Positions 5,152 through 55,070 of a stretch of 64,000 nucleotides of DNA are shown one piece after another (positions within the stretch are counted from its first letter, which is position 1; each line of letters starts with the position of its first letter). The DNA is taken from assembly GCF_003332305.1 (NCBI RefSeq), contig NZ_QOIO01000006.1:62001-126000 (forward strand). The letters are read 5' to 3'. The stretch comes from Microvirga aerophila. GTDB lineage: Bacteria; Pseudomonadota; Alphaproteobacteria; Rhizobiales; Beijerinckiaceae. The notes beneath the pieces are model-generated. The model worked only from the letters and a program-made list of their open reading frames with translations, was not told the DNA's origin and searched no databases. Both the position numbers and the translations under genes were made by a program.

Positions 5152-5737
5152 CGCGTTCCTGCTGACCGCCTCATTGAGCCTCCTCATCCACCCCGTTGGG
5201 GCGCAGGAGGGCGCGCGTCCCAAGGAGCAGGCTCCCGCCGCGCGACCGGCGCCCCGCGCCTCGACCCTCGATGAGCTGTTCGAGCGTCTCTCCAAGGCTG
5301 AGAACGAGCAGGAAGCGCAGGGCATTTCGACCCTGATCGACCGGCGTCTGTCACGGTCCGGGTCCGATACGGCCGACCTACTGCTGAGCCGGGCAACGCA
5401 GGCCTACGAGTCGAAGGATCATCCGCTGGCGGTCGAGCTTCTGGATCGCGTGTTGGCGCTCCAGCCCGCCTGGGCTGAGGCCTGGTACCGGCGGGCCACC
5501 ATTTTCTACCAGCTCGATGATCCCATCGGCGCCATGGCGGATCTCCACAAGGCCCTGAAGATCGAGCCGCGCCATTTCGGAGCTTGGGCCGGGCTCGGCC
5601 ATATTCTCATGGCGTCAGAGGACAAGATCCGCGCCCTGGAGGCCTACCGGCGCGCCCTTAAGATCAACCCGCAATTCCCGACCCTTCAGACCATCGAGAA
5701 GCGCCTCAGCCAGGAGGTCGGCGGTCAGGACCTCTGA
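5141..5737 (+). CDS. periplasmic tetratricopeptide-repeat protein
   Basis: 198 residues with a signal peptide (MRFFAFLLTASLSLLIHPVGA, cleavage near residue 21), a charged and Pro-rich linker, and about three TPR units from residue 85 to 190, including A-W-A-E-A-W-Y-R-R-A. Exported TPR proteins usually act as scaffolds; the partner is unknown. The start codon is unusual: it lies inside the rpmJ terminator stem, so any transcript beginning upstream either terminates or carries the start codon in a stable hairpin. A later start would cut into the signal peptide, so I keep ATG 5141. It converges with pyk. Confidence 0.8.
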   Translation: MRFFAFLLTASLSLLIHPVGAQEGARPKEQAPAARPAPRASTLDELFERLSKAENEQEAQGISTLIDRRLSRSGSDTADLLLSRATQAYESKDHPLAVELLDRVLALQPAWAEAWYRRATIFYQLDDPIGAMADLHKALKIEPRHFGAWAGLGHILMASEDKIRALEAYRRALKINPQFPTLQTIEKRLSQEVGGQDL

Positions 5738-5796
5738 CCCGACCATCCATCAAGACATGATGTCCCAGCCACGCGCGGCGGCCGGGACCTGCAGGC

Positions 5797-7233
5797 TCAG
5801 GCCTGGGCGGCGTGTTCCGGGCTGACGAAGGCGATGCGCACCATGTTGGTGGCGCCCGGCGTGCCGAAGGGGACGCCCGCCACGATGATGATGCGGTCCC
5901 CGACCTGCGAATGGCCTTCGCGTACGGAGAATTTGCAGGCCCGGAACGCCATGTCGTCGATGTCGCTGGCATCCTTAGTGCGGATCGAATGCACCCCCCA
6001 GACCAGCGCTAGGCGACGGGCGGTGTTGACGCTCGGCGTCAGGGCAATCACCGTCGAGTTGGGCCTCTCGCGGGCGATGCGGAACGCGGTGGAGCCCGAA
6101 TAGGTCCAGGCGGCAATGGCCTTGAGGTTGAGCGTATCGGCGATCTGGTGCGCGCCGGCCGCGATGGCGTCGGAGCCGGTGGCCTCGGGCGCGGCGTTCT
6201 GGGTCTGCACGATCGACCAGTAGCTCTGGTCCTGCTCGACCTCCTCGGCGATCCGGTTCATGGTGGCGACCGCTTCGATCGGGTATTGGCCTGAAGCGCT
6301 TTCCGCCGAGAGCATCACCGCATCGGCTCCGTCATAGACGGCCGTCGCTACGTCGGACACCTCGGCGCGGGTCGGCACCGGCGACGTGATCATGGATTCC
6401 AGCATCTGGGTCGCCACCACCACGGGCTTGCCCAGCCGGCGCGCCGCGCGAACGATCCGCTTCTGGATGCCCGGCACCTTCTCCAGGGGCATCTCGACGC
6501 CCAGATCCCCGCGCGCCACCATGACCGCGTCCGAAATCTCCATGATTTCGTCGAGGCGGGTGATGGCCTGGGGCTTCTCGAGCTTGGCCATGACGAGCGC
6601 GCGCCCGCGCGCCACCTTCTTCACCTCGGCCACGTCCTCGGGGCGCTGCACGAACGACAGGGCGATCCAGTCGACGCCCGCGTCGAGAGCGGCTTCCAGA
6701 TCAGAGCGGTCCTTATCGGTCATGGCCGCCACGGGGATCACCGTGTCGGGCAGGCTCACGCCCTTGCGGTTGGAGATCTTGCCGGCCACCTCGACCTCGG
6801 TAGTGGCCGAACCCTGCTTCACGCTTTTCACCCGCAGGCGAAGCTTGCCGTCGTCAACGAGAACCGTATCGCCCGGCTCCAGGGAGGACAGGATTTCCGG
6901 ATGGGGCAGGTGAACGCGGTCTCCGGTGCCGAGGGTCTTGTCGGCGTCGAGGGTAAAGGTCTGACCCTGCACCAGCATGGTGCTGTCGCCTTCGAACGCG
7001 CCGACCCGCAGCTTCGGGCCCTGAAGATCGGCCAGGATGGCGATGGGGCGCTTGAACTTCGCCTCCACGGCGCGGATCATCTCGACCCGCTCCTTCAGGC
7101 GCTCCCGGGGCAGGTGGCTCATGTTGAGGCGGAACACGTCGGCGCCCGCCTCGAACAGCTTGGCGATCATCTCCGGGCTCTCGGAGGCCGGGCCCAAGGT
7201 TGCCAGTATCTTCGTGCGCCGTGCGCGTCTCAT
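5797..7233 (-). CDS. pyk: pyruvate kinase
   Basis: It converts phosphoenolpyruvate and ADP to pyruvate and ATP, the last step of glycolysis, in the cytosol. 478 residues, the normal bacterial length. The N-terminal T-K-I-L-A-T-L-G-P-A-S, the active-site M-A-K-L-E-K-P and M-V-A-R-G-D-L-G-V-E motifs, and the C-terminal allosteric domain are all intact. AGGGGGG lies before the start. The stop codon of the upstream DUF1036 gene is one base from this ATG, so the two are almost certainly cotranscribed. The pairing with a DUF1036 gene recurs in Rhizobiales, from memory. Confidence 0.97.
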   Translation of the reverse strand: MRRARRTKILATLGPASESPEMIAKLFEAGADVFRLNMSHLPRERLKERVEMIRAVEAKFKRPIAILADLQGPKLRVGAFEGDSTMLVQGQTFTLDADKTLGTGDRVHLPHPEILSSLEPGDTVLVDDGKLRLRVKSVKQGSATTEVEVAGKISNRKGVSLPDTVIPVAAMTDKDRSDLEAALDAGVDWIALSFVQRPEDVAEVKKVARGRALVMAKLEKPQAITRLDEIMEISDAVMVARGDLGVEMPLEKVPGIQKRIVRAARRLGKPVVVATQMLESMITSPVPTRAEVSDVATAVYDGADAVMLSAESASGQYPIEAVATMNRIAEEVEQDQSYWSIVQTQNAAPEATGSDAIAAGAHQIADTLNLKAIAAWTYSGSTAFRIARERPNSTVIALTPSVNTARRLALVWGVHSIRTKDASDIDDMAFRACKFSVREGHSQVGDRIIIVAGVPFGTPGATNMVRIAFVSPEHAAQA

Positions 7234-39532: not shown

Positions 39533-39739
39533 ATGGCTTTCGATCCCTTCGCCGACGAACCGGCCGTCCAAGCGGCCGGGCATCAGGTCGGACAAGACCT
39601 GTCGATGTTGTCCATCGACGAAATCGACGAGCGCATCGCTCAACTCGAGCGCGAAATTTCCCGGCTCAAGGAGGCCCGGTCCGGCAAGGAGAGTTCACGC
39701 GCCGCCGCCAGCGCCTTTTTCAAGCTCGGTCAGGAATAA
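39533..39739 (+). CDS. DUF1192 small protein
   Basis: 68 residues, M-A-F-D-P-F-A-D-E then a coiled coil I-D-E-R-I-A-Q-L-E-R-E-I-S-R-L-K-E-A. DUF1192 is a short alphaproteobacterial family of unknown role. AAGGAGAGA gives a strong ribosome site. Followed by the candidate sRNA and rcdA on the same strand. Confidence 0.88.
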   Translation: MAFDPFADEPAVQAAGHQVGQDLSMLSIDEIDERIAQLEREISRLKEARSGKESSRAAASAFFKLGQE

Positions 39740-39799
39740 AGCGCTTTTTGTCACTCAGTTACGTTGTTTAACGGCTTTTTAAGGTTTCCGAGAGATAAA

Positions 39800-39899
39800 T
39801 GAGGCTATCCAGTTTCCTCTGGATGCCGAGTGGCTCCTATCCACTCTGTTTGACGCCTCCCTGTTATGACTTAGAGCCGCCTCTGGCGGCTCGATTTTT
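39800..39899 (+). ncRNA. candidate trans-acting sRNA with two anti-Shine-Dalgarno-like loops
   Basis: About 100 bases ending at a strong terminator. Hairpin 1 is ATCCAG-TTTCCT-CTGGAT (39807-39824). Hairpin 2 is GAGTGG-CTCCTAT-CCACTC (39828-39846). The unpaired stretch between hairpin 2 and the terminator holds GCCTCCC (39855-39861). All three exposed stretches contain CCT-rich sequence able to pair with ribosome-binding sites. This layout resembles the alpha-r14/cuckoo class of alphaproteobacterial sRNAs, though I cannot match it to a named family. It carries no ORF. A clear promoter is not visible, so it might also be the processed 3' UTR of the DUF1192 mRNA. Confidence 0.5.
39874..39899 (+). 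terminator. rho-independent terminator of the sRNA candidate
   Basis: GAGCCGCC-TCT-GGCGGCTC followed by GATTTTT. Confidence 0.9.
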
Positions 39900-39922
39900 G
39901 TCAGGCACCCTCCGGTTTAACC

Positions 39923-39937
39923 TTAACCGAGGGTTAG
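39923..39937. promoter_or_regulatory. putative CtrA-binding box upstream of rcdA
   Basis: TTAA, seven bases, TTAG (39923-39937), one base from the full consensus TTAA-N7-TTAA, 105 bases before the rcdA start. The same bases also form a palindrome TAACC-GAG-GGTTA. In Caulobacter rcdA is recalled to be CtrA-activated, so a feedback loop is plausible. Confidence 0.45.
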
Positions 39938-40042
39938 CGAAGCATCCGGCGCAAAGGCGCTCTATAATCATCTCCTAACGACAACATCACGCCCTCGTCC
40001 GACGACCCGGACCGAGGACGAGAAGCGCTTTGGAGACCCTTG

Positions 40043-40573
40043 GTGAGCGAACCCGACGTGATCAATCTTGGCGCCGGTCCGATCCGTTTCGGGCAGAGCT
40101 TCGTGCATTCCGAGGCCTTCAAGGTGCTGTTCCAGGAAGGCATGGAGCTCATCGAGGAAACGGCCGCCTATCTGGACGGCCCCGGGCGCGAGGATTCGCG
40201 GCTCATGGCGCGGGAACTGAGCGTCGTCTACGCCAGCGAGAGCATGCGCCTGACAACCCGCCTGATGCAGATCGCCTCCTGGCTCCTCCTGCAACGGGCC
40301 GTGGCCGAGGGCGAGATCACCCCCGATCAGGCCCACGAGGAGAAGAACCGGGTCCGCCTGTCGGCGCAGGACACCCCCACCACGGTGGGCGAGTTCGACG
40401 CGCTCCCGCCGCGCCTGCAGGAGCTGGTGGGCCTCGCGACGCGGCTCCATGCCCGCATCATCCACCTGGAAAGGCTGATCTCGGAACCCCAGGCCGCCCC
40501 TGAGCCGATCGCCGCGAATCCCGTCTCGGCCCAACTCGGACTGCTCGAACGGGCTTTCGGCAGCCACACCTGA
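40043..40573 (+). CDS. rcdA: RcdA-type regulator of CtrA degradation (DUF1465)
   Basis: 176 residues of the DUF1465 family: F-V-H-S-E-A-F-K-V-L-F-Q-E-G-M-E-L-I-E-E-T-A near residue 22, then the helix S-M-R-L-T-T-R-L-M-Q-I-A-S-W-L-L and a disordered tail. In Caulobacter, RcdA joins ClpXP with CpdR and PopA to deliver CtrA for proteolysis at the cell pole. The start is GTG 40043 with GGAG about eight bases before; TTG 40040 is in the same frame. CpdR is encoded at 4.1 kb of this window; PopA is not seen here. Confidence 0.85.
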   Translation: MSEPDVINLGAGPIRFGQSFVHSEAFKVLFQEGMELIEETAAYLDGPGREDSRLMARELSVVYASESMRLTTRLMQIASWLLLQRAVAEGEITPDQAHEEKNRVRLSAQDTPTTVGEFDALPPRLQELVGLATRLHARIIHLERLISEPQAAPEPIAANPVSAQLGLLERAFGSHT

Positions 40574-54910: not shown

Positions 54911-55050
54911 GGCGGGGCTGCGGGGCGCGTCAGGAGTTCATTCCCCGGGGCCTTAACGATCCTATGGGAGCTGTCCCTGACCCGGTCCCTGGACCGGGAT
55001 ACACGGCGCCCACCTACTTATGTAGGTTCCCGGGATCGCTTCTCCGACGG
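54911..55050 (+). ncRNA. ssrS: 6S RNA
   Basis: The gap between the GNAT gene and the cyclo-ligase gene holds a sequence matching my memory of rhizobial 6S RNA: GGGGCTGCGG, then CCCCGGGGCCTTAACGATCC, a terminal hairpin CCCGGTCC-CT-GGACCGGG (54981-54998), GGCGCCCACC, and a small hairpin ACCTAC-TTAT-GTAGGT (55012-55027) before CCCGGGATCGC. 6S RNA mimics an open promoter and holds the main sigma-factor RNA polymerase in stationary phase. Its place upstream of the cyclo-ligase gene is the usual one. Ends are approximate. Confidence 0.82.
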
Positions 55051-55070
55051 CTTTTGTGGCTCCGCACTCT

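Follow-up and report, generated by a model that had tools for sequence, protein, structure and literature searches.

The window analysed here (64,000 nucleotides of the Microvirga aerophila genome, to which all coordinates below refer unless another locus is named) carries on its forward strand a short interval between a DUF1192 gene (39533–39739, Pfam PF06698 and synteny) and a DUF1465 gene (40040–40573, forward strand, Pfam PF07323 and synteny), the product of which we take to be RcdA, a protein that helps CtrA degradation. The original prediction had placed a candidate sRNA at 39800–39899, directly upstream of rcdA, and this position holds, as does the statement that no reading frame fits (no ORF of at least 60 aa crosses 39800–39899). 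The fold of 39790–39910 beats 200 of 200 dinucleotide shuffles (z −3.67). That the RNA is new did not survive the Rfam search that had been proposed as a check: RF02356 (BjrC1505) covers 39760–39899 with 84.5 bits, above its gathering score of 50, along the full model (1–140), and a genome search returns this single match. The candidate is a genuine bacterial sRNA, the local copy of a catalogued family. The Rfam description line reads just “Alphaproteobacterial sRNA”, and in the open-access literature we found no function for BjrC1505, whose name was met there only within a list; its source is presumably Madhugiri 2012, on small RNAs of Bradyrhizobium and Rhodopseudomonas.

The same neighbourhood holds a gene for TrcR, a transcriptional cell cycle regulator (PF06242; 38503–39225, reverse strand), which recurs in 35 of the 135 loci described below, many of them too short to show it. 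Further along the window lies a 6S RNA (RF00013, 85.7 bits; 54912–55066, forward strand).

Predicted transcript structure and the conserved CCUCCC loop

The predicted transcript (~94 nt, 39806–39899, forward strand, its start placed by inference to within ~3 nt) folds into four hairpins. Hairpins 1 (39806–39825, loop TTTCCT) and 2 (39828–39846, loop CTCCTAT) have 6–7 pairs each and are present as originally described, and the strong terminator announced with them is an 8-pair stem (39874–39892) followed by a T run to 39899. Between these elements, the CCTCCC motif (39856–39861) is where it had been reported, but is not simply unpaired sequence ahead of the terminator: it forms the loop of a weak hairpin 3 (39848–39870), which has a conserved core and which RNAalifold also draws across 27 diverse relatives. 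We presume this loop to be an anti-Shine-Dalgarno seed. Its unpaired probability is 1.0 in the fold of the 94-nt window transcript; in model-length folds the mean for CCUCCC is 0.50 in the window and ranges from 0.02 to 1.00 over 24 of 73 family representatives, and on these modelled structures presentation of the motif in a loop is likely, though not uniform among families.

Conservation is distributed unevenly along the molecule. In a plain MAFFT alignment (n = 27), two-sided changes occur in 5/6 pairs of hairpin 1 (69% of cells paired), 5/6 pairs of hairpin 2 (71%) and 5/8 pairs of the terminator (99%), and hairpin 3, with 96.3% of cells paired, has zero; a structure-fitted alignment (n = 48) concurs, but is biased toward structure. 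The covarying stems that had been proposed as a test are thus found in hairpins 1 and 2, whereas deep conservation of loop sequence is confined to the third. Of 73 family representatives, 70 have an exact CCTCCC; the 5′ hairpin regions of these contain CTCCT in 26 cases (shuffled 9.8), TTCCT in 5 (shuffled 8.2) and CCTCC in 3 (shuffled 7.0). The notion of three anti-ribosome-site motifs therefore stands for CCTCCC, the other two loops being variable between families (hairpin 1) or lineage-specific (hairpin 2).

Family distribution and a CtrA-type box in the promoter

In a class sample of 385 genomes, RF02356 itself finds 40 at E ≤ 0.001, 17 of them above its cut-off. Nearly all of the 30 loci from the Rfam-model search share a core, approximately TTGAYGCCTCCCTGTTR, just 5′ of a G+C-rich terminator (L012, L013, L020 and L022 depart from it), and a pattern scan with TTTGAYGCCTCCCTGTTR gave at least 118 stretches; among the matches listed, these are mainly from Rhizobiales (Bradyrhizobium, Mesorhizobium, Phyllobacterium, Devosia, Bosea, Stappia, Roseibium), with Kiloniella and Sneathiella beyond that order. 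Of 144 core matches with 190 or more bases of upstream sequence, a terminator-stem test accepted 135 (28 rows from the RF02356 search, 107 from the TTTGAYGCCTCCCTGTTR scan); the nine dropped included apparently chance matches in Lentisphaerae, Flavobacteriaceae and Planctomycetota records, and also some apparently genuine members whose stems are imperfect (L010, L030, L076, L089).

Two models of the family were built, R1 from 27 sequences below 78% identity (L040 excluded by hand) and R2 from 48 sequences. Forty further stretches comprised 19 members together with L215 (which duplicates the L020 locus), 19 MmgR-like stretches that were excluded, and one filler (L214), with members among weak scores sorted by eye on core sequence. 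As 19 of these 40 resemble MmgR, we rejected the idea that every R1 or R2 match is a member; weaker matches of both models are mixed with MmgR, so that the larger of the following counts are not all members. R2 reaches 131/385 class genomes at E ≤ 1e-4 and 50 at E ≤ 2.2e-8 (counted from the listing), and in the window's order 138/150 genomes at E ≤ 0.001 and 116 at E ≤ 2.2e-8 (likewise by listing count). When 16 member loci were scored by Rfam, 8 passed RF02356 and 8 had no match at all. A search of plasmids gave no match to the RNA, and a Caulobacter ncRNA table (PMC5988900) has, in the part available, no entry attributable to rcdA; for this and the other papers cited here, statements refer to the accessible passages. 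Tandem copies of the RNA were seen within single genomes (G378, G210), at 1301–1419 and 1501–1616 on the reverse strand of L025 and also in L026, and TTAA-N7-TTAA-like boxes stand ahead of the copies read.

CtrA is a well-studied cell-cycle regulator of alphaproteobacteria, and its reported outputs are mostly protein genes. The original prediction had linked the RNA to CtrA through the pathway in which RcdA works; the link goes further, a CtrA-type full box (TTAA-N7-TTAA, 39768–39782, forward strand) sitting in the sRNA promoter itself, with its spacing kept, at nearly the same position, in relatives. Among 66 aligned family representatives one half of the box reads TTAAC and the other TTA(A/G)(C/G), and a TA-rich peak lies 26–31 nt past the box start, the distance to be expected of a box that overlaps the −35 region. 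The peak position suggests GATAAA (39794–39799, forward strand) as a putative −10 region, and the box itself points to a start near 39806; with this placement, the first ~40 positions of RF02356 are probably promoter DNA and not RNA. R1 and R2 begin downstream of the box, which was consequently not selected by either model, whereas RF02356 includes the promoter and the 30 loci from the Rfam-model search are therefore not independent of it.

Upstream of the 135 loci, the strict TTAA-N7-TTAA occurs in 60 (shuffled mean 1.0, maximum 5) and the relaxed TTWA-N7-TTAR in 119 (shuffled mean 3.1, maximum 7), and other spacers from 0 to 15 give at most 10 strict and 14 relaxed boxes; after thinning below 65% identity (n = 39), 31 loci retain a relaxed and 17 a strict box. 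A family-level count (119 loci in 73 GTDB families by GTDB label, the first-listed genome representing each family) finds at least 7 of 8 positions at spacer 7 in 69/73 families (shuffles 10.8) and a perfect box in 33/73 (shuffles 0.84). At spacers 5, 6, 8 and 9 the same promoters reach 7 in 17, 31, 15 and 20 families and are perfect in 3, 1, 1 and 1; the near-boxes at spacer 6 (31/73) are more numerous than those that shuffles give at spacer 7. Four of the 73 families lack a box scoring 7 or above. Membership is doubtful for L191, L189, L192 and L197 (families f121, f136 and f127), without which families the count is 67/70 by hand, and also for L205 (f24), which is counted as a miss. Of 1692 control windows taken from other parts of these loci, 39 reach 7 and 9 are perfect, and among 16 MmgR promoters (those of 15 excluded MmgR-like stretches and of the window's own MmgR) only one reaches 7.

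The motif agrees with the CtrA ChIP consensus TTAA-N7-TTAAC of Hyphomonas (PMC7200025), the full site TTAA-N7-TTAA given in PMC4287350, and the S. meliloti site TAA-N7-TTAAC (PMC3616915); in Caulobacter, CtrA sites with a spacing other than 7 are described as weakly bound (PMC3616915). Judged by sequence, a conserved CtrA-type box at promoter distance is what would be expected of a member of the CtrA regulon. The ctrA gene itself was detected in 45 of the 50 class genomes carrying the RNA (missing from G113, G210, G195, G230 and G224) against 258/385 overall (E ≤ 1e-55, at most 7 candidates per genome, cross-counted by hand), a weak comparison since reduced genomes are missing much else besides.

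A second CtrA-type box, TTAA-N7-TTAG (39923–39937, forward strand), lies in the interval between the sRNA and rcdA and is followed by CTATAAT, a candidate separate promoter for rcdA. Across the 109 loci with rcdA, this interval contains a relaxed box in 26 and a strict one in 24, and the sRNA promoter of the same loci has a relaxed box in 98.

Gene context, related RNAs and alternative readings

We argue that the box-bearing gene is an independent sRNA gene. The most serious question concerns rcdA, as the frequent gene order is DUF1192, box, sRNA, terminator and rcdA on one strand, followed by an oppositely oriented gene for ribosomal protein L31. An RNA in this position could be a CtrA-activated rcdA leader, an attenuator whose terminator tunes read-through into rcdA, in place of a trans-acting RNA; rcdA indeed lies no more than 1 kb downstream in the same orientation in 109/135 loci (median gap 160 nt), and in 49 of the 60 families with at least 500 nt downstream (profile search, counted by hand). 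Yet a profile search of the fetched locus (E ≤ 1e-3, which a strongly diverged rcdA could escape) did not find rcdA in ten families for which 1.3 kb or more of downstream sequence was available (f43, f3, f69, f66, f81, f59, f189, f182, f180, f190), and each of these retains a box matching 7/8 positions or better. Pfam names other neighbours at such loci, with a zinc-type dehydrogenase upstream (L007, L011, L029, L231) and a Cys/Met-metabolism enzyme (PF01053) downstream (L007, L011, L021), and it is this retention of the box beside other genes that argues for an independent sRNA gene and leads us to disfavour the leader. One genome has two copies in tandem (L025), copies occur on viral contigs (DUF1465 in 0/10 of their proteins scanned with Pfam), and a separate box precedes rcdA in the window (39923–39937). 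We accordingly regard a leader function as unlikely.

A relationship to MmgR needs more care. The window contains, at 2881–2955 on the forward strand, an MmgR/suhB RNA (RF00519, 73.9 bits), a second sRNA with a CCUCCCU seed, and the MmgR/alpha-r8/SisA-D group resembles BjrC1505 in carrying this seed shortly 5′ of a G+C-rich terminator, with ACUYGGGCCGC-like letters soon following it in both RNAs. R1, although built without MmgR-like loci, picks them up weakly, and four of four such matches (L181, L185, L200, L213) scored RF00519 in Rfam. That the candidate might be a plain MmgR (alpha-r8) duplicate serving carbon-storage control, its CtrA box incidental, nonetheless seems improbable: the window holds both RNAs, RF00519 matching 2881–2955 and not the candidate locus; the box is absent from 15 of 16 MmgR promoters; and the 10-mer UUUCCUCCCU, the seed of MmgR/alpha-r8, is missing from the candidate, whose 5′ hairpins also differ. 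For sisA-D, the accessible text of PMC12559287 reports no conserved upstream motif. Least credible is the design that the original prediction had favoured, that of the alpha-r14 (cuckoo) silencing sRNAs. These have hairpin loops of anti-Shine-Dalgarno character, and three hairpins with CU-rich loops ahead of a terminator are present here too; alpha-r14 RNAs, however, carry CCUCCUCCC in all three hairpins (PMC10746234), whereas BjrC1505 has one conserved CCUCCC, displays the loops UUUCCU, CUCCUAU and CCUCCC in place of CCUCCUCCC, does not conserve loops 1 and 2 as anti-Shine-Dalgarno elements and gives no ar14 match at E ≤ 1 over 39600–40050. We consider alpha-r14 membership highly improbable and reject it. 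Overall, the observation behind the original prediction is confirmed and its interpretation partly supported.

Other regulatory RNAs of the class offer partial parallels. Caulobacter CcnA shares a predicted CtrA site in an ncRNA promoter and a C-rich loop, but is described as a 182-nt RNA at the replication origin with CCCC in loop A (PMC8959179) and is set apart by this description. The Sinorhizobium RNAs GspR and EcpR1 are trans-acting sRNAs on the CtrA/GcrA/DnaA network (PMC5928217; PMC7143759), as we propose for BjrC1505. Unlike BjrC1505, GspR is described as flanked by SMc03844/SMc03845, Sinorhizobium-limited and with no known promoter signatures 5′ of it (PMC5928217; PMC7143759, available parts), and the possibility that it is the Sinorhizobium member of the family is unsupported by its published description (PMC5928217), on which we judged it.

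Proposed function, viral copies and the CtrA circuit

The family, its structure, the conservation of seed and box, and synteny form the computed basis for what follows; from it we infer CtrA binding and activation, the position of the start, the action of the seed, the existence of targets and a function in phages. BjrC1505 is, we think, probably a broadly distributed alphaproteobacterial trans-acting sRNA that is a direct output of CtrA and a seed-based repressor of mRNAs. CtrA would bind the TTAA-N7-TTAA box overlapping the −35 region and activate a transcript of ~94 nt, which would stop at the intrinsic terminator and expose CCUCCC as the loop of a nearly invariant hairpin that is short and weak. 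By analogy with SisA (alpha-r8) of Caulobacter, where the anti-Shine-Dalgarno sequence UUUCCUCCCU represses an mRNA upstream of its start codon as supported by paired mutations (PMC12559287), this seed would pair with purine-rich ribosome-binding regions and repress translation of many mRNAs, likely with assistance from Hfq, and the CtrA-type box would confine such silencing to the phase in which CtrA is active. A SisA-like action is our best guess given the CCUCCCU and similar terminator common to both RNAs.

Extended complementarity within the genome, sought with AACAGGGAGGCGTC at up to 2 mismatches, occurs at 101 places against 47 for a reversed control. Of 30 target-candidate loci, 25 gave a row (one being the sRNA gene itself), 7 had a possible start codon by a mechanical test, and the sole candidate examined further was L291, where an ATG lies one base past the complementarity match. 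The gene there (1500–1881 of L291, forward strand) encodes a small protein with the ribosome-binding site AACAGGGAGG, is found in its own genome only, among 61, has a paralogue in L319 and gives no Pfam match. The L319 leader carries CCTCCCTGTT upstream of the site, a likely cis hairpin over the ribosome-binding site that resembles the sRNA seed, and such a hairpin accounts for the L291 match no less well than the sRNA does. This search, with one exact-complement pattern in the window's own genome, yielded no conserved target.

Pattern scans of IMG/VR gave 37 distinct viral stretches, 14 of which have, by eye, the core immediately followed by a terminator-like stem (L321, L322, L323, L324, L325, L328, L330, L333, L341, L345, L346, L347, L354, L357). 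R2 finds 11 of these at E < 1e-4 and L346 at 0.005, with L354 and L357 unlisted; the strongest copies are L324 (68.5 bits) and L347 (58.4 bits), and L343 and L351 (R2 at 0.009) were left uncounted as no terminator was seen. PHROGs matches on the contigs include terminase (L322, L330), virion or tail proteins (L347, L328, L325), integrase (L341), primosomal proteins (L324, L354), a DNA ejection protein (L345), endolysins (L321, L323) and a helicase (L357), with no match among the two proteins scanned for L333. A phage RNA-binding protein (phrog_850) is encoded at 5689–7176 on the forward strand of L321, ~180 bp from the phage sRNA copy. Among annotated phages, no match was found for the window core or for L324, L321 or L347; with L330, Vibrio and Escherichia phages matched only in pieces of 25–27 bases from the end that holds the terminator. 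An N7 box above 6/8 is absent from all 14 core-and-terminator stretches; five of the other 23 reach 7 (L331, L332, L340, L343, L351). We would guess that the phage copies put a host regulatory RNA to phage use, which is a testable prediction.

Published work on CtrA and rcdA can be reread in this light. In Sinorhizobium, ChIP-seq places CtrA at the rcdA promoter region, yet CtrA depletion leaves rcdA unchanged (PMC4433202), and a comparative scan describes control of rcdA by CtrA as conserved within its cluster A (PMC2877005, where a 400-bp limit appears in a passage about different sites); either result would be expected if the CtrA site drives the intervening sRNA. The report that CtrA does not regulate rcdA in Hyphomonas (PMC7200025, available part) fits either view, of a site belonging to the sRNA or to rcdA. 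Against a general reading of such sites as the sRNA's own stand Caulobacter, in which rcdA itself is credited with a cell-cycle start site having a CtrA motif and a ChIP signal (PMC4287350), and S. meliloti, in which a CtrA motif was located ahead of an rcdA start site (PMC3616915). In species that carry the sRNA, some of the CtrA sites published as lying “upstream of rcdA” may belong to it.

New in this analysis are the CtrA-type box ahead of BjrC1505 (our search of the open-access literature found no CtrA link for it in print), the association with rcdA, the MmgR-like seed and terminator, and the viral copies. More speculatively, the RNA may form a hidden, conserved arm of the CtrA circuit, with much of the reported CtrA-to-rcdA edge outside Caulobacter being an edge from CtrA to the sRNA, and with boxless phage copies imposing the translation programme of the CtrA phase at a time of their own; we hold this wider picture only tentatively. 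Provided that S. meliloti carries the RNA, CtrA binding at the Sinorhizobium rcdA promoter without a change in rcdA on depletion would have a reason, as would the conserved CtrA control of rcdA seen by the comparative scan. If the RNA is a common CtrA output in the window's order (116/150 genomes at E ≤ 2.2e-8) and in further lineages dispersed over the class, post-transcriptional silencing is built into the CtrA circuit.
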